Source: Alphaproteobacteria bacterium (GTDB lineage: Bacteria; Pseudomonadota; Alphaproteobacteria; GCA-2731375). Taken from it: a stretch of DNA of 13,190 nucleotides. A model generated the notes under the pieces. It did no database searches. It saw only the letters and a list, made by a program, of their open reading frames with translations, and was not told the origin of the DNA. The stretch's first letter is position 1, and every line of letters starts with the position of its first letter. The stretch lies in contig JASLMY010000136.1 in assembly GCA_030746295.1 (NCBI GenBank), forward strand, positions 1 to 13,190, in the 5' to 3' direction. Positions 1,402 through 7,728 of this stretch are shown piece after piece. The translations under genes and the position numbers were made by a program.

Positions 1402-2376
1402 TCAATCGGGGAGAGGGCCGTTCAGCCGGGGGCCCTGATCGGCGATGTGGCGGGTGCGGTGGTGGTAATCGTCCTGGCCGAGCGTCAGGCGGTGGTGTGC
1501 CGTATTGAAGACGCTGTAGGCGCCGCATTTCGAGCAGTCGACGTCGTTGCCATAGCAGCAGAAGGGGCGCTCGAAGTTGCCGCCCTCGCCCATGTAGAGC
1601 GGCAGCGTCGCCCGCATCATGCAGTGCTCACCGGCGGCGCCGGTGTATTCGAGGCAGCGGTCGGAGTACATCAACTCCAGTGCGCCGACGTTGGCCTTCA
1701 CGACCGAGGGGTACTTGCGCTTGACGGCGATGACGCGGTCGATGACGGCGTCGCGCTCGGCCAAGTCGTCCCAGCCGAGGCGGGTGTCGTCCTCCACCAC
1801 CGGCACGTAGAAGGTGAAGGCGACGCCGTTGATGGGCCAGTCCTTGACCTCCTCGACGAAGGCCTCGATGCCCGCCTCGTTCTGGCGCGTGATCGTCATC
1901 TGAACGATGACGGTGGTCTCGTCGTTCGGTTCGCGCTCGGCGATCGCGGCTTTGACCTTCTGGAAAACGCCTTCGCCGCGGATGCTGTCGCTGAGCGCTT
2001 CCGGGCCGTCGAGCGAGACCGTGACCAGGCCGCCCGGCAGCCTTGGGATGCCGTATGTGCCGTTGGTGACGATCGCCGGCAGCTCGAACAACTCGGCTGC
2101 CTGCATCACCATCTTCTTGCGGATCATCGGCTCGCCACCCATGAACAGCATCGAGCGGATGCCGTGCTTGTCGCGCAGCACGCGGAGCTGATGCAGCATG
2201 GTGGCGTCATCCATCTTGTCGCGCGGCCGGTTGGGGTTTGAGGCTCGGAAGACGAAGCAGTGCGAGCAGTCGAGGTTGCAGACGTTGGTGACGTTGACGA
2301 GCGCGGTCGGGAACTCTTGCTCGCCGAAATCGGTCGGCGGTCGGATCTCGGCCTCTCGTGCAGCGGTCTCGGGCAT
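1402..2376 (-). CDS. Radical SAM protein with C-terminal auxiliary cysteines, function unknown
   Basis: The 324-residue protein carries the radical SAM signature C-x3-C-x2-C (Cys33, Cys37, Cys40), followed by the GGEP SAM-binding motif at 80-83. The C-terminal part has Cys241, Cys252, Cys273, Cys274, Cys281 and Cys284 (the last two as CSKC). This looks like a SPASM- or HpnH-type region that could hold an additional Fe-S cluster. Radical SAM enzymes of this architecture modify peptides, lipids or cofactors; no substrate can be read here. The frame stays open upstream to 2643, but the ATG at 2376 is chosen because the upstream part is compositionally unlike protein, overlaps the methyltransferase gene and crosses a 20-bp operator. 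The four-helix membrane protein gene follows 25 bp downstream. The enzyme class is certain, the reaction unknown. Confidence 0.88.
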   Translation of the reverse strand: MPETAAREAEIRPPTDFGEQEFPTALVNVTNVCNLDCSHCFVFRASNPNRPRDKMDDATMLHQLRVLRDKHGIRSMLFMGGEPMIRKKMVMQAAELFELPAIVTNGTYGIPRLPGGLVTVSLDGPEALSDSIRGEGVFQKVKAAIAEREPNDETTVIVQMTITRQNEAGIEAFVEEVKDWPINGVAFTFYVPVVEDDTRLGWDDLAERDAVIDRVIAVKRKYPSVVKANVGALELMYSDRCLEYTGAAGEHCMMRATLPLYMGEGGNFERPFCCYGNDVDCSKCGAYSVFNTAHHRLTLGQDDYHHRTRHIADQGPRLNGPLPD

Positions 2377-2398
2377 GGCGGCCACTCGGTCAGTGATT

Positions 2399-2418
2399 AT
2401 TCTAACGTCCGTTAGAAT
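2399..2418. promoter_or_regulatory. 20-bp perfect palindromic operator (TetR-family type) in the radical SAM promoter
   Basis: ATTCTAACGTCCGTTAGAAT has two perfect 9-bp arms around a TC centre, 22 bp upstream of the radical SAM start. The CTAACG..CGTTAG form resembles TetR-family operators. On the minus strand TAGAAT, at the start-proximal end, could serve as a -10 hexamer with TTTAGG as -35 (15-bp spacing, short), which would put the operator inside the promoter as a repression site. No TetR-type regulator is encoded in the window. The palindrome is certain; the regulator class is inference. Confidence 0.65.
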
Positions 2419-2470
2419 GCCTAAACTCGGGCGACTAAGGAAGCTCTTTCCGGTTGGGGCGGGCCGGCAT

Positions 2471-3193
2471 TCAGTCGGCGCGTTTGCGCAATAGGTTGGC
2501 GCGAAAACCCATGTCGAGGACGAAGATACCGTCCTCGGCCCGCGCTTCGGCCTCGAAGCGGGCGCGAATCGCCGGCCCGTTGTCGGCGAAGGCCCGGGCG
2601 TTCTCGGGTCGCCGCCCGCCGACGGTGGCGACGAAGTCGTCATAGTCCTCGAAACGCCGGCTGCCGCCGTAGAAGCTCTCGGAGACCGCCTCGAAGCCGA
2701 GCTCGCCGGCGCGGCCCAGCTCGTCGTAAGCGCGGACCCGTACCGCCGTCTCGTCGTCGACCAGCCGCTCGACGTCGAAGTACGCGCCCGCGGCCAGCGG
2801 CTCGGTGACGTAGAGCAGGCCGCCGGGCCTGAGCACCCGGGCCGCCTCGGCCAGTGCCGCGCGCATCTTGTCGGGTGGTACGTGATGCAGGCTGGTGGCG
2901 AAGATCACCGCGTCCAGGACGCCGTCGGGGAAGGCCAGCGCCTCGGCCTTGCCGGTCAGAAACTCGGCCGCGTTGGCGCTCGCCTCGGCCGCCCGCCGGG
3001 CGGTATCGATCCGTTCCCGGTCCGGGTCGATGCCAATGACGCCGGCGCCGACGGTGGCGAGATAGCGGGCGAGCGCCCCTTCGCCGCAGCCGACATCGGC
3101 GATGCGCTTGCCGGCGGGGCTGAGCAACGCCTCGGCCATCGCCTCGTGCGTCGCCTCTTCGAGGGGGCCGGCCTCGGGCCGAAACGGGGACAT
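2471..3193 (-). CDS. Class I SAM-dependent methyltransferase (UbiE/Methyltransf_11 type)
   Basis: The 240-residue protein has the class I methyltransferase fold: motif I DVGCGEG at 33-39, an acidic motif II (GIDPDRER), ATSLHHVP in the motif IV region, and LRPGGLLYVTEP as the post-motif IV strand. This pattern is typical of small-molecule C- or O-methyltransferases; the acceptor is unknown. The ATG at 3193 is taken because the family alignment starts there; an in-frame ATG at 3250 would lie inside the preceding gene. It starts 10 bp after the EthD-like gene on the same strand, so the two are very probably co-transcribed. The radical SAM gene further on is separated by 94 bp containing its own operator, so read-through into it is uncertain. 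Confidence 0.85.
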   Translation of the reverse strand: MSPFRPEAGPLEEATHEAMAEALLSPAGKRIADVGCGEGALARYLATVGAGVIGIDPDRERIDTARRAAEASANAAEFLTGKAEALAFPDGVLDAVIFATSLHHVPPDKMRAALAEAARVLRPGGLLYVTEPLAAGAYFDVERLVDDETAVRVRAYDELGRAGELGFEAVSESFYGGSRRFEDYDDFVATVGGRRPENARAFADNGPAIRARFEAEARAEDGIFVLDMGFRANLLRKRAD

Positions 3194-3203
3194 GCTCTGT
3201 TTC

Positions 3204-3515
3204 TCAGGGCCAGACCTGCACGTAGGCGGCGCGCTCGCGATCCGAGACATCGCCGAAGTTGCGGTCGTACTCGGCGATCAGCTCGGCGAAATGCTCGGAC
3301 TTCTGGAATTCCTCGAAGGTGGCTTCGCTCTCGAACTCGTACATCGCCATGTATTGGTACGCGTCGTCACCCAGGATCTTACGGTAACGCCGGGCCGAGA
3401 CCGCACCTTTGTAGCGCAGGAGCTGCGGGCAATGCTCGTTCTCGTACCAGTGGTTGAAGGCCTCTTCGGCTTCGGCGGTGATCGTGGCGCGGACGGTCAA
3501 CAGGACGGCGGCCAT
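3204..3515 (-). CDS. EthD-like small dimeric alpha/beta-barrel protein
   Basis: The 103-residue product looks like a ferredoxin-fold dimeric alpha/beta-barrel protein of the EthD/DUF4286 kind. It has a beta strand (LLTVRATI), a helix with FNHWYENEHCP at 20-30, a strand with SARRYR, a strand with YMAMYEFES, and a C-terminal helix. HWYxxEHxP is the hallmark of the group, whose members include accessory proteins, cyclases and monooxygenase-like enzymes. The AAAGGAG Shine-Dalgarno sequence just before the ATG at 3515 is strong and decides the start over an in-frame ATG at 3578. The adjacent methyltransferase suggests a small-molecule tailoring or degradation role; this is inference. Confidence 0.75.
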   Translation of the reverse strand: MAAVLLTVRATITAEAEEAFNHWYENEHCPQLLRYKGAVSARRYRKILGDDAYQYMAMYEFESEATFEEFQKSEHFAELIAEYDRNFGDVSDRERAAYVQVWP

Positions 3516-3548
3516 GGTTGCGTCTCCTTTCGGCCTCGGGCTGGGGGA

Positions 3549-3578
3549 AGTATGAGCCGCGGTAGCGTCCGCCGGCAA
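3549..3578 (-). promoter_or_regulatory. Candidate sigma70-type promoter for the EthD-like/methyltransferase pair
   Basis: On the minus strand TTGCCG (3573-3578) and CATACT (3549-3554) are 18 bp apart, about 35 bp before the ATG at 3515. A perfect 7-bp inverted repeat with a 5-nt loop (CGCCGGC...GCCGGCG, 3570-3588) overlaps the -35 hexamer and could be an operator. A 9-bp palindrome TTAGTCTAA lies further upstream at 3611-3619. Each element is short, so support is modest. Confidence 0.35.
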
Positions 3579-3712: not shown

Positions 3713-4051
3713 ATGTCGGTCATGCTGATCGGCTTGGCCAGCAAGAGCGCCATCCTGATCGTCGAATTCGCCAAGGTGCGCCGCGAGGAGGGCAGGTCCT
3801 TGGACGAGGCGGCGCTCTTGGCCGCGCGGCTGCGCTTTCGCGCCATGATGATGACCGCACTCTCCTTCATCCTGGGCGTCCTGCCGCTCGTCTTCGCGAC
3901 CGGCGCCGGGGCGGCGAGCCGGACCTCGATCGGCTTCGTCGTCTTCGGCGGCATGGTCGCCGCGACCGCGATCGGCGTCCTCTTCATCCCGGTGCTCTAC
4001 GTCGCCGTGCAACGCCTCCGCGACGGCTTAAGGTCGCTGATGCCGTCGTAG
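3713..4051 (+). pseudogene. C-terminal remnant of an RND (AcrB/HAE1) efflux pump
   Basis: The 112 residues align to the last ~110 residues of AcrB-type inner-membrane pumps, which are normally about 1,000-1,050 residues. [16 protein letters not shown] corresponds to transmembrane helix 11, [15 protein letters not shown] leads into the next conserved part, [13 protein letters not shown] is the conserved loop, and [19 protein letters not shown] is helix 12. Everything before helix 11 is missing: the proton-relay helix 4, the porter domains and the funnel. An in-frame stop (TGA, 3707-3709) directly precedes the ATG, and I see no pump sequence upstream in any frame. GGAGG at 3695-3699, about 13 nt before the ATG, is far for a ribosome site. 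A fragment of this size cannot pump alone. The family match is certain; expression is doubtful. Confidence 0.85.
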
Positions 4052-4076: not shown

Positions 4077-5039
4077 TCAGCTCTTGAAATCGTGCGCGGC
4101 CGGAAAGCCGTGAAGCGCCACCGGCGGTACCGTTGCGGCGAAGTCGCGGACCCGGCGCATCACGTCCGGCATGGGGCGCTCGCCAAGTGGGCAGAGTGCC
4201 ACACAGGCGATCTTGCAGATCCGGTTGTCGTTGCCGTCCATCGCCAGGTAGTCGTTCATGGTGTGGTCGACGCCGGCGCGGTCTGTCGGATAGCGTTCCT
4301 TGAAGCCGGCCTTCAGGGTCTCGAAGTCGGTGCCGCGCCGGCCCGCGTCGGCATAGCACCTGAGATGGCTGACGAGGCCGTCGCGGCTGATCGCGTCGGT
4401 CGGGCAGACGCGCCAGCAGATGTCGCAGGCGGGCGGGCAGGGATCGCCTTCGAGCAGGGGGTCGGCGGTCAGCGCCGCCGCCGTCAGTACGCCGCCCAGC
4501 CGAATTCGGGTGCCGTGCTTGGCACTGGCGACGAGGCCGTTCTTCGCCTTGCGTCCCAGCCCCGCCAGGACCGCGGCCCGCTTCATGCTGAAAAGGCCGT
4601 AGGCGGGCGAGGTGATGCTCTCGTCCCGATCCGCTCGCCTATCGTAGCGTGAGCCGATGTTGTAGCCCATCGGCACCGAGCGATGGCCCCGGTCCTCCAG
4701 CCAGCGGGCGAGGCCGAAGGTGATCTCGTTCAAGCGCCGGTTCAAGAAGACGTAGCCGAAGTTGCCCTGCACGCCCGTGGTCCGGCACGCCGTGGTGGTG
4801 GTATCGACGACGCCGTCCAGCAGGCGGACGGCGACCATCACGACGCTTCGGGTGGACGGCATCAGCTCTTGGGGCAGATGGCCGCTTTGCGGATAGACGC
4901 GGACGCGCTCAGGCTCGAAGGGTGGCGGCGCGTCCCAACGATCCACCGTCGCGACCGCGGCCTCGTCGGCGCCGAGCTCGAGGGCGAGCCGCTTCAGCTC
5001 AGCCGTCAGGTCGACGGACGCGGCCTCGGCGGTCGTCAT
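4077..5039 (-). CDS. QueG-like double [4Fe-4S] ferredoxin-type reductase
   Basis: The 320-residue protein belongs to the broad epoxyqueuosine-reductase-like (COG1600) group. The middle has the AVLAGLGRKAKNGLV and TRIRLGGVLT stretches typical of that group (about 156-186). Two cysteine clusters follow: C-x3-C-x2-C-x3-CP at 201-213, and Cys275-x3-Cys279-x3-Cys283-Pro, with Cys228 a likely extra ligand, consistent with two [4Fe-4S] clusters. The spacing differs slightly from the standard C-x2-C-x2-C-x3-CP, and I cannot confirm cobalamin binding, so it is probably a paralogue and not QueG itself. The gene starts 9 bp after the selenoprotein stop, with GAGG overlapping that stop as ribosome site: the two form an operon. 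A role as electron donor to the selenoprotein is inferred from adjacency only. Confidence 0.82.
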   Translation of the reverse strand: MTTAEAASVDLTAELKRLALELGADEAAVATVDRWDAPPPFEPERVRVYPQSGHLPQELMPSTRSVVMVAVRLLDGVVDTTTTACRTTGVQGNFGYVFLNRRLNEITFGLARWLEDRGHRSVPMGYNIGSRYDRRADRDESITSPAYGLFSMKRAAVLAGLGRKAKNGLVASAKHGTRIRLGGVLTAAALTADPLLEGDPCPPACDICWRVCPTDAISRDGLVSHLRCYADAGRRGTDFETLKAGFKERYPTDRAGVDHTMNDYLAMDGNDNRICKIACVALCPLGERPMPDVMRRVRDFAATVPPVALHGFPAAHDFKS

Positions 5040-5048
5040 GGCCCGGCC

Positions 5049-5921
5049 TCAATCGCCGCCCGTGGCCGCTTCCGCCAGCCGCCGGTCCTCCTCGGACTGG
5101 TAGCGCGGAGTTTCGTCGCGGGGGCTGCGCTGGTCGTCGCCCTCGGCGCTGGCGGCCTCGGCGCGCCAGTCGTCCTCGCCCCAGCCACAGCCGAGATCGA
5201 CGATCTCGCCCGGCGTGGTGATCGTCGGCCAGGCCTCGATGGCGCGGCGGACGATGTCGTGCTGGTCGGCGCTATCGGATGGCTTGCCCGTGGTATGGCC
5301 CAAGGGGTAGTCGACGAAGACGGCGCGCGGCGGCTTGCCGGCGGCGATGATGTCCCAGGCGCTGGCGATGCAAAGCGTCGGTATGCCGTTCGCTTCCAAA
5401 TGTCGGGCAACCAGACTCACGGTCTGGTGGCAGACCGGTCACAACGGCACCAGAAGCGCGAGGTCGACCGCTTGGCTTGCGAAGGCGGCCTCGACCGTCG
5501 GGATCAGCTCTTCCGTCACGCGGCGCTGCGAATAGATCCCGCCCATGCAGGAGAAGACCTCGTCCGCCAACTCGCCGATCGCAGCCTCGGCCTCGAGCTG
5601 GCGGAGCGAGCCCAGCGGAAAGACGCAGTTCGGGTCTCTGCGGGGGTCGGGCAGGTAGTGCTCGGTGATGTGGCTGAAGCGAAGCTCGGCTTCCGGTGTC
5701 GCCTTGGGGATCGCGCGGATCGAGGTGTCGTCCTTGTAGTAGTAGGCGACTTGGCCGGCGACGTAGGTGCCGGCCGTCGACAGCATGCCGAGCCGGGATT
5801 CGGAAAGCGGCTTGGCGAGTGGTTGCCAGGGCGGCTCGGTCTCGGCGTGGTACCAGTTGTAGGGCGGATAGCCGAGGCGGCTGTAGCGTTCGGTGATGCC
5901 CTTGATGTATTCGACGTGCAT
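5049..5921 (-). CDS. GrdB/PrdB-family selenoprotein, in-frame UGA = Sec161
   Basis: The product is 290 residues if the TGA at 5439-5441 is read as selenocysteine 161. Before it lie family features: LSTAG at 47-51, KDDTSIRAIP at 63-72, RFSH at 81-84, NCVFPLGSLRQL at 98-109 and AVDLALLVPL up to 160. After it the same frame continues U-P-V-C-H-Q-T-V (161-168), then LVARHLEANGIPTLCI, which is also family sequence. This is the selenoprotein B family of glycine/betaine/sarcosine and D-proline reductases, where the Sec-x2-Cys pair (U161, C164) is the redox centre. No grdA, grdC/D, grdE or prdA partner is in the window. The start at 5921 follows the family N-terminus. It is first in an operon with the QueG-like gene. 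A SECIS-like hairpin follows the UGA. The substrate is unknown. Confidence 0.88.
5410..5428 (-). promoter_or_regulatory. Candidate bacterial SECIS hairpin
   Basis: In the mRNA, stem ACCAGAC / GUCUGGU (7 bp, perfect) encloses loop CGUGA. The loop starts 18 nt after the UGA and has G at its second position, matching the general bacterial SECIS description (apical loop roughly 16-37 nt after the UGA, G among the first two loop bases). A competing hairpin, CGGUCUG / CAGACCG with loop CCAC (5420-5437), shares the CAGAC strand and sits too close to the UGA to be the usual SECIS. Confidence 0.7.
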
Positions 5922-5955
5922 GCCAGGTGCTTCCCTATCCGCGGAGGAGGGATCC

Positions 5956-5984
5956 ATTAGGCCAGAGGGACAAGGGCGAGGCAA
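5956..5984 (-). promoter_or_regulatory. Candidate promoter of the selenoprotein operon
   Basis: On the minus strand TTGCCT (5979-5984) and CCTAAT (5956-5961) are separated by 17 bp and lie 35-63 bp upstream of the start at 5921. The match to the sigma70 consensus is fair, and position and spacing are good. Confidence 0.4.
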
Positions 5985-6020: not shown

Positions 6021-6054
6021 AGTCCGGGGCTGGCGCATAATGAAAGGACGGGCG

Positions 6055-6690
6055 ATGGCCGAGTCGCATCACCACCACGATCACGGCGAGATGTCGGAGC
6101 TGAGCGAGACCGAGCTTCGGGTTCGGGCACTCGAATCGCTGCTGACCGAGAAGGGGCTCGTCGATCCGGCGGCGCTGGATGCGCTGATCGACGTCTACGA
6201 GAACAAGGTCGGGCCCAAGAATGGCGCCCGGGTCGTGGCCCGCGCCTGGACCGACCCCGACTACAAGGCTTGGCTGTTGCAGGACGCCACCGCGGCGATC
6301 GCCGAATTGGGCTACACGGGCCGCCAGGGCGAGGACATGGTGGTGCTGGAGAATACGGCCACCGTCCACAACATGGTCGTCTGCACGCTTTGCTCCTGCT
6401 ATCCCTGGCCGGTCCTGGGGCTGCCGCCGGTCTGGTACAAATCAGCCCCCTACCGTAGCCGTGCCGTCATCGACCCGCGTGGGGTCTTGGCCGAGTTCGG
6501 CCTGGAGGTCGACGACGATGTCGAGGTCCGGGTCTGGGACAGCACTTCGGAATTGCGCTATCTCGTGCTGCCCGAGCGGCCGGCGGGTACCGAAGGTTGG
6601 CCGGCGGAACGGCTGGCCGAGATCGTCAACCGGGATTCCATGATCGGCACCGCCAAGGTCACGGTTCCCGAATCCGAAATGGAGGGGTGA
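6055..6690 (+). CDS. nthA: Nitrile hydratase alpha subunit, cobalt type
   Basis: The 211-residue subunit binds the catalytic metal of nitrile hydratase, which hydrates nitriles to amides in the cytoplasm. The metal-binding claw is V-C-T-L-C-S-C with Cys110, Cys113 and Cys115; Thr after the first Cys marks the Co(III) type (the Fe type has Ser). [14 protein letters not shown] follows as in the family. In active enzymes Cys113 and Cys115 equivalents are oxidised to sulfinic and sulfenic acids. The N-terminus carries a His-rich stretch (His5-8, His10), common in Co-type alpha subunits and possibly used for metal capture. The ATG at 6055 is chosen over one at 6040 because AAAGGA lies 6 nt before it. 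The beta gene starts 1 bp after the stop with GGAGG as ribosome site. Confidence 0.95.
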
Positions 6691-6691
6691 G

Positions 6692-7354
6692 ATGAACGGA
6701 GCCCAGGACATGGGCGGCGTGCACGGCTTCGGCCCGATCCAGCGGGAAGCGGACGAGCCCGTGTTCCACGCCGAGTGGGAGCGCCGTGCCTTCGCCGTGA
6801 CACTGGCCATGGGCGCGCACGGCAAGTGGAACATCGACGCGACGCGCTTCGCCCGCGAGAACACGCCCCCCGGCGATTACCTCGCCCGCAACTACTACGA
6901 AATGTGGCTCTACGGCCTGGAGAAGCTGCTGGTGGAGAAGGGCTTCTGCACCGAGGCCGAGATCGAGGCGGCGCTCGCCGGCGAGCACGCGGCACGCGTC
7001 GGGGAGCCACCGCTCCGGGCGGACGACGTCGCGCCGGCCATGGCCAAGGGCAGCACGGCGCGCGTCGAGGCGGATGTGGCGGCCAAGTTCCGGGCCGGCG
7101 ATCGGGTCCGCGCCCGCAACCTGAACCCGACCGGCCACACCCGGGCGCCGCGCTATGTCCGGGGCCGCCAGGGTACGATCGATCGCGACCATGGCGTCTT
7201 CGTCTTTCCCGACACCCATGCGATGACCGGCGACAAGAAGCCGCAGCACGTCTACGCCGTCCGCTTCGAGGCGGCCGAGCTTTGGGGTCCGGAAGGGGTG
7301 GGCGGGGCTGCCGTCTACGTCGACCTCTGGGACGACCATCTAGAGCCCGCCTAG
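6692..7354 (+). CDS. nthB: Nitrile hydratase beta subunit
   Basis: The 220-residue protein is a complete beta subunit. It starts with the typical MNGxQDMGGVHGFGP, has the helical ARNYYEMWLYGLEKLL part at 65-80, and a C-terminal SH3-like barrel with HTRAPRYVRGRQG at 149-161. Arg52 and Arg151 correspond to the two conserved arginines that hydrogen-bond the oxidised cysteines of the alpha subunit. One intact beta chain argues against thiocyanate hydrolase, where this region is split in two. The alpha and beta genes are 1 bp apart, and the accessory gene begins 2 bp after the beta stop, so all three are one transcript with coupled translation. Confidence 0.95.
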   Translation: MNGAQDMGGVHGFGPIQREADEPVFHAEWERRAFAVTLAMGAHGKWNIDATRFARENTPPGDYLARNYYEMWLYGLEKLLVEKGFCTEAEIEAALAGEHAARVGEPPLRADDVAPAMAKGSTARVEADVAAKFRAGDRVRARNLNPTGHTRAPRYVRGRQGTIDRDHGVFVFPDTHAMTGDKKPQHVYAVRFEAAELWGPEGVGGAAVYVDLWDDHLEPA

Positions 7355-7356
7355 CC

Positions 7357-7728
7357 ATGTGCCCGGCGCCGACGCGAACGGAGCTTCCGAGCCTGCCGCG
7401 CGACGACGAGGGCCCGGTCTTCGCCGAGCCCTGGCAGGCCCAGGTCTTCGCCATGGTGGTGAAGCTGCACGAGGAGGGGGTCTTCGGCTGGCCCGAATGG
7501 ACCGAGCGGCTGGGCGCCGAGATCAAGGCGGCGCAGGCCGCCGGTGACCCCGACACGGGCGAGACCTACTACGGGCATTGGCTGGCGGCCTTGGAGCGGC
7601 TGATGGCCGAGAGGGCACTGGTTACAGGTGCCGAGCTCGCCGAGCGGCGGGACGCCTGGGCCCGCGCCGCCGCCGTCACGCCGCACGGCCAGCCGATCCG
7701 GCTGGGCGCCGAGGTCGGCAAGAGCTGA
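7357..7728 (+). CDS. Nitrile hydratase accessory protein (small beta-like activator family)
   Basis: The 123-residue protein resembles the N-terminal half of nitrile hydratase beta. EPVFAEPWQAQVFAMVV and YYGHWLAALERLMAERAL parallel the EPVFHAEWERRAFAV and YYEMWLYGLEKLLVEKG segments of the beta subunit encoded just upstream. Such proteins act as metallochaperones or self-subunit-swapping activators for Co-type enzymes, loading cobalt into the alpha subunit; that role is taken from the family. The ATG is 2 bp after the beta stop. A short inverted repeat (GGGCG/CGCCC, 7735-7749) follows the stop without a T-run, so a weak attenuator at most. No CobW/P47K-type activator or cobalt transporter is seen nearby. 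Confidence 0.88.
   Translation: MCPAPTRTELPSLPRDDEGPVFAEPWQAQVFAMVVKLHEEGVFGWPEWTERLGAEIKAAQAAGDPDTGETYYGHWLAALERLMAERALVTGAELAERRDAWARAAAVTPHGQPIRLGAEVGKS

Follow-up and report, generated by a model that had tools for sequence, protein, structure and literature searches.

Is a minus-strand reading frame with a TGA in its middle one selenoprotein gene, or two pieces of a broken one, and what might its product do? These questions are raised by a locus in a window (the whole stretch of DNA analysed) of 13,190 nucleotides. The comparisons below indicate that the locus is very probably one intact selenoprotein gene with selenocysteine at residue 161. As such it is a clean case of a stop codon mishandled by standard annotation, in which the gene looks split in two.

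Reading frame and in-frame TGA

An earlier note on this DNA had described a minus-strand frame with a single internal TGA at 5439-5441 and no indel, and re-reading of the letters proved this correct. With TGA read as U, the minus strand from 5921 to 5049 gives 291 codons, in which TGA occurs twice, as residue 161 (5441-5439) and as the terminal stop (5051-5049). The sequence around the Sec codon reads ...LALLVPL-U-PVCHQTVSLVARHLE..., free of both frameshift and indel. A Cys had been placed two residues after the TGA; the partner Cys is indeed present, but at U+3, with two residues between (UxxC). Gene calling had been expected to yield two fragments of 160 and about 123 residues, and the mechanical ORF list does split the gene in this way: counted from the ATG at 5921, the piece up to the TGA is 160 residues long (the list, starting at an ATG further upstream, gives 199), and the C-terminal piece has 123 (5420-5049). 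Long ORFs are also found in frames overlapping the gene, such as one of 425 aa on the plus strand (4683-5960), so that the open frame by itself is little proof; what goes beyond chance is that the sequences before and after the TGA both have homologues. Coordinates of the gene and of its surroundings are collected in Table 1.

Table 1. Features in the window, with strand and basis of assignment.
Feature	Position	Strand	Basis
Predicted selenoprotein gene, 290 residues, PrdB/GrdB superfamily, Sec at residue 161, motif UPVC	5049..5921	minus	Frame, profile and homologue comparison
In-frame TGA, read as selenocysteine U161	5439..5441	minus	Frame reading, homologues, named loci
Cys164, probable resolving Cys in the UxxC motif	5430..5432	minus	Invariant column, 36 aligned sequences
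Putative SECIS hairpin, 7-bp stem (5428-5422 with 5416-5410), loop CGUGA (5421-5417)	5410..5428	minus	Comparison, covariation
QueG/reductive-dehalogenase-like gene, ATG 9 bases past the selenoprotein stop	4077..5039	minus	Profile search, ORF list
Nitrile hydratase alpha and beta subunits and accessory-like ORF (by eye), divergent, upstream of the selenoprotein gene	6040-7728	plus	Pfam/NCBIfam matches
AcrB/AcrD/AcrF transporter C-terminal fragment (ACR_tran model positions 923-1020)	3713-4051	plus	Pfam match
Radical SAM protein, methyltransferase, small DUF4286/EthD-like protein	1402-3578	minus	Pfam/NCBIfam matches

Homologues and recurrence of the TGA

The protein search scored 7997 candidates, 3279 of them at E 0.001. 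Among the best 120 of these 3279 homologues, 73 read through the Sec site, with Cys in all 73, and one is the window's own first half; the remaining 46, out of 119 other homologues, end truncated just before the Sec codon. Because standard-code protein calls cannot show U, the informative point is that Cys is the sole residue at the site, and this alignment of column 161 bears out the proposal that the codon occupies the redox Sec/Cys column of the family.

Loci from named genomes (n = 22) are 53-69% identical to the protein; the match spans 279 residues or more in 20 of them and is shorter in L017 and L019. Codon 161 is TGA in 20 of the 22 and TGT in L016, and L019 is cut off before it. A set of 30 loci from the nearest order, in which L001 appears once more, has TGA at the equivalent codon without exception. 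A TGA is one base away from TGC or TGT, as it would be in a Cys-form gene that had been misread in sequencing or had lately become a pseudogene by a nonsense mutation; recurrence of the same TGA in both sets of loci, together with conservation that persists in both halves of the gene, argues against such an origin.

A putative SECIS hairpin downstream of the TGA

Counting the T of the TGA as 1, the hairpin stem is formed by positions 14-20 and 26-32. It starts 10 nt after the UGA, and its five-base loop begins 17 nt past the UGA and has G as its second base. Such a spacing of the loop, and a G near its start, fit the bacterial SECIS model. Within the window there was no Rfam match, and the window's 50 nt alone gave a fold z-score of -1.34, with 14 of 200 shuffles as good, a modest gain that can be counted on the side of a pseudogene or an error. 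Among 59 distinct Sec sequences, all six inner stem pairs are present in 51 and five in the remaining eight, whereas in 10 distinct Cys sequences six pairs are never found, five are found in two, four in five and three in three, so that the predicted hairpin is weakened in the Cys homologues.

Covariation was scored on 24 sequences picked from the 59 for variety, a choice that favours covariation: 95.8% of cells were paired, two-sided changes occurred in four of seven pairs (matched by 1 of 500 shuffles), and the covariation score was reached by none of 500 shuffles. Pairing fell from 95.8% to 20-36% in slid-partner controls. Single loci behave alike: in L098 two synonymous changes turn a G-C pair of the stem into A-U, and in L050 pairing is kept although four of six stem pairs differ. 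A hairpin that covaries is a further argument against a pseudogene or a sequencing error.

The stem and loop also encode the residues TV[SCG]L that follow the CHQ motif. These residues are found in 56 of the 59 distinct Sec sequences, a set that includes paralogues, vs one of the 73 Cys proteins in the best-120 list, a Cys set free of paralogues; among the 10 distinct Cys DNA sequences, L090 reads TVSL. The pattern suggests that the SECIS dictates residues beside the active site. We infer, as our own reading and from a Sec set with paralogues in it, that the TV[SCG]L residues drift after Sec loss.

Selenocysteine machinery in relatives

We compared the presence of selA with the codon form across relatives, and found it in 52 of the 57 genomes whose family match has a TGA in frame vs none of the 13 whose match has none (Fisher P 1.8e-10, kinship not corrected). 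For 48 of these 57 genomes the TGA itself was read at codon 161, and for the other nine (G089, G130, G228, G295, G298, G331, G339, G371 and G374) the assignment comes from the search row "1 TGA inside" alone; nine of the 13 TGA-free genomes were read as Cys, and four (G144, G336, G382 and G413) show just no stop. G264 and G019, whose matches are too short for codon 161, were left out, and one family-match search behind the table was capped at six scored candidates for each genome, at E 1e-20. The five TGA genomes that lack selA (G002, G026, G047, G298 and G347) are perhaps incomplete assemblies; G002 carries a tRNA-Sec at 79.8 bits.

Among 22 relatives, selB scored above the cut-off in 19 and tRNA-Sec reached at least 63 bits in 17, and the sole Cys genome, G016, is without selA and without selB above the cut-off. 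No tRNA-Sec match over the cut-off was found in G015, G018 or G019, all of which have selA; weaker tRNA-Sec matches are ambiguous, because the cut-off is passed in 5 of 14 control genomes too. The earlier note had predicted selA, selB, selD and tRNA-Sec for the source organism if the selenoprotein reading is right; as judged by these matches, selA, selB and tRNA-Sec go along with the TGA form in the genomes of relatives. With selA accompanying the TGA as well, we regard a pseudogene or an error in a Cys-form gene as extremely unlikely. In a selenoprotein gene, SelB with Sec-tRNA would recognise the hairpin behind the UGA and insert selenocysteine at residue 161, and this predicted route of insertion is well supported by comparison.

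Family placement and name

The protein had been called GrdB/PrdB-like, a label that holds for kinship and falls short for function. Kinship is indicated by the alignment of U with Cys in the 73 read-through homologues and by the NCBIfam search, in which PrdB (TIGR04483) is the best model (E 2.9e-34), with an alignment that spans model positions 17-230 of 238; the score, 118.6 bits, lies far under the curated cut-off of 300. The GrdF, GrdH and GrdB models follow as weaker matches, all below their cut-offs, and for GrdB (TIGR01918) the score was 28.7 bits vs a cut-off of 65.45 and the length 290 residues vs about 430. TIGR04483 is also the best model for five fetched paralogues, at 80-134 bits. 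A Pfam scan of the selenoprotein at E 0.001 returned no family, and relatives such as P0012 and P0020 (60% identical) carry a precomputed PF07355.

Published annotation would make the protein a true subunit of D-proline reductase (PrdB) or glycine reductase (GrdB): beyond the best model, some relatives bear the JGI name PrdB, and the Sargasso Sea selenoproteome paper assigns D-proline cleavage to its PrdB family (PMC1088965). Neither the scores of this protein and its paralogues nor the presence of several family loci per genome agrees with that assignment. PrdA (TIGR04480) and PF09338 were each found in 0 of 36 relatives; since the 14 control genomes were silent for PrdA too, and no control genome matched PF09338 either, the absence of PrdA in relatives is not proved by these counts. 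A Pfam scan of 10 proteins from the window gave no PF09338 match, and no prd genes were recognised around the selenoprotein gene. As the searches of relatives turned up no PrdA, the pyruvoyl partner, D-proline reductase is probably the wrong identity, and we consider a true PrdB or GrdB subunit very unlikely. The product would instead be a stand-alone relative of PrdB, for which the usual name, proline reductase, is probably ill-fitting.

Structure prediction gave a confident alpha/beta domain (mean pLDDT 92.4, pTM 0.92), in which residue 161, modelled as Cys, lies between the beta strand 154-158 and the helix 162-177; a search of solved structures found no convincing relative. Sec161 and Cys164 would act as a selenol/thiol pair that cycles via a selenenylsulfide.

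Paralogues and Sec/Cys exchange

The genome of the closest named locus (G001, 69% identity) belongs to an order in which 14 of 15 genomes, their assemblies taken as they stand, each carry 2-10 family loci that have a TGA in frame; the orthologue counts among these. Ten family loci were counted in G027, some of which are contig-end fragments that might belong together. In 13 of the fetched loci the resolving Cys is replaced by D (PLDH); 12 of these loci carry TGA (L037-L042, L045-L047, L051, L084 and L085) and one, L083, carries TGC. The SECIS stem is intact in the 12 TGA forms of this subclass.

We built a tree of 157 sequences (82 Sec and 75 Cys) with the site itself omitted, leaving out L023 (same place as L001), L019 and L094. 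The Sec/Cys label needs five changes on this tree, in a direction that is not fixed, and at least three of the five are forced by well-supported branches.

Gene neighbourhood and possible role

An acyl-CoA-type gene lies within 500 bp of 16 of 55 family matches, and none of the four gene types lies within that distance of the other 39; the 55 matches include L018 as two pieces, and distances were taken from alignment ends. The 16 near genes encode six acyl-CoA dehydrogenases, five class III CoA-transferases, four AMP-dependent ligases and one enoyl-CoA hydratase. More than 3 kb away, the same four types number 25 in 528,330 bp, which gives about 2.6 expected, a figure to be read as a guide with no formal test, since sister species inflate the observed 16. 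In all five cases with a near CoA-transferase, its gene has the same orientation and lies 45-77 bp downstream.

No acyl-CoA gene adjoins the selenoprotein gene in the window itself; this, like the 39 matches with none of the four types nearby, counts against a CoA-linked role. The QueG-like gene is likely co-transcribed with the selenoprotein gene in the window, and it was not found beside the selenoprotein gene in the relatives examined. Its protein has no Pfam match, two 4Fe-4S-type Cys motifs by eye, and close orthologues in 2 of 15 nearest-order genomes. Likewise, no nitrile hydratase operon was found near the selenoprotein gene in the relatives searched. The AcrB/AcrD/AcrF fragment is apparently a remnant, and in L001 a protein 68% identical to the DUF4286/EthD-like one is encoded about 3 kb away from the selenoprotein gene. 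Two small overlapping ORFs on the minus strand at 168-798 resemble a HEPN/MNT pair, judging by motif.

The UxxC motif and the lack of a fixed operon across the relatives examined would suit a general thiol/peroxide redox protein rather than a substrate-specific catabolic enzyme. We think this somewhat improbable, as 36 aligned sequences share many invariant residues along the whole length beyond the UxxC pair, and as the several paralogues per genome and the closely spaced CoA-transferase genes suggest substrate specificity. From the neighbourhoods of some relatives, we tentatively propose, as the likeliest role but at less than even odds, that the protein may be a stand-alone selenol/thiol reductase that performs a two-electron reduction in the catabolism of compounds handled as CoA thioesters. 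A bolder and distinctly less probable scheme is a pyruvoyl-free branch of PrdB/GrdB type that radiated in marine Proteobacteria to as many as 10 UGA-encoded members per genome, including a UxxD subclass with Asp for the resolving Cys. Each member would reduce a different alpha-substituted acyl-CoA, with Sec attacking the thioester-activated carbon as GrdB attacks the Schiff-base-activated carbon.

Comparison with known selenoproteins

Marine bacterial selenoproteins of this kind have been catalogued since 2005. The Sargasso Sea selenoproteome lists "PrdB, UxxC" with 42 genes and the D-proline role (PMC1088965), and the GOS study counts 235 Sec and 110 Cys PrdB sequences (PMC2398784); in both, the family is among the commonest marine selenoproteins. 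Two reviews treat TIGR04483 as a selenoprotein family (PMC13188914, PMC9312934). The kind is thus already known from these four sources. Less expected are the 2-10 TGA loci per genome, the UxxD subclass and the presence of acyl-CoA genes close to 16 of the 55 family matches; in literature represented mostly by titles and abstract openings, we noticed no paper on many family loci per genome, on the subclass or on a CoA linkage.

GrdB, GrdF and GrdH (TIGR01918, PF07355) resemble the protein in part: the C-terminal third of their models aligns with its residues 95 to about 230. They differ in being about 430 residues long, the present protein staying under all of their cut-offs, and GrdB has UxxCxxC in one of the reviews (PMC13188914), unlike the UxxCxxT found here. 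D-proline reductase PrdB is closer in that it aligns over nearly the whole TIGR04483 model and has its Sec in a UxxC motif, according to the same review (PMC13188914); the present protein differs in scoring far under the PrdB cut-off, and the searches recognised neither PrdA in 36 relatives nor prd genes around the locus. From their published descriptions, we infer that the marine selenoproteins named "Proline reductase PrdB" (PMC1088965, PMC2398784) belong to the same branch. Unlike them, this copy has neighbours of its own; it shares with them the UxxC Sec motif, the PrdB type, Cys homologues and an origin in environmental bacteria, and an abundant marine selenoprotein family may have borne an unfitting functional name since 2005.
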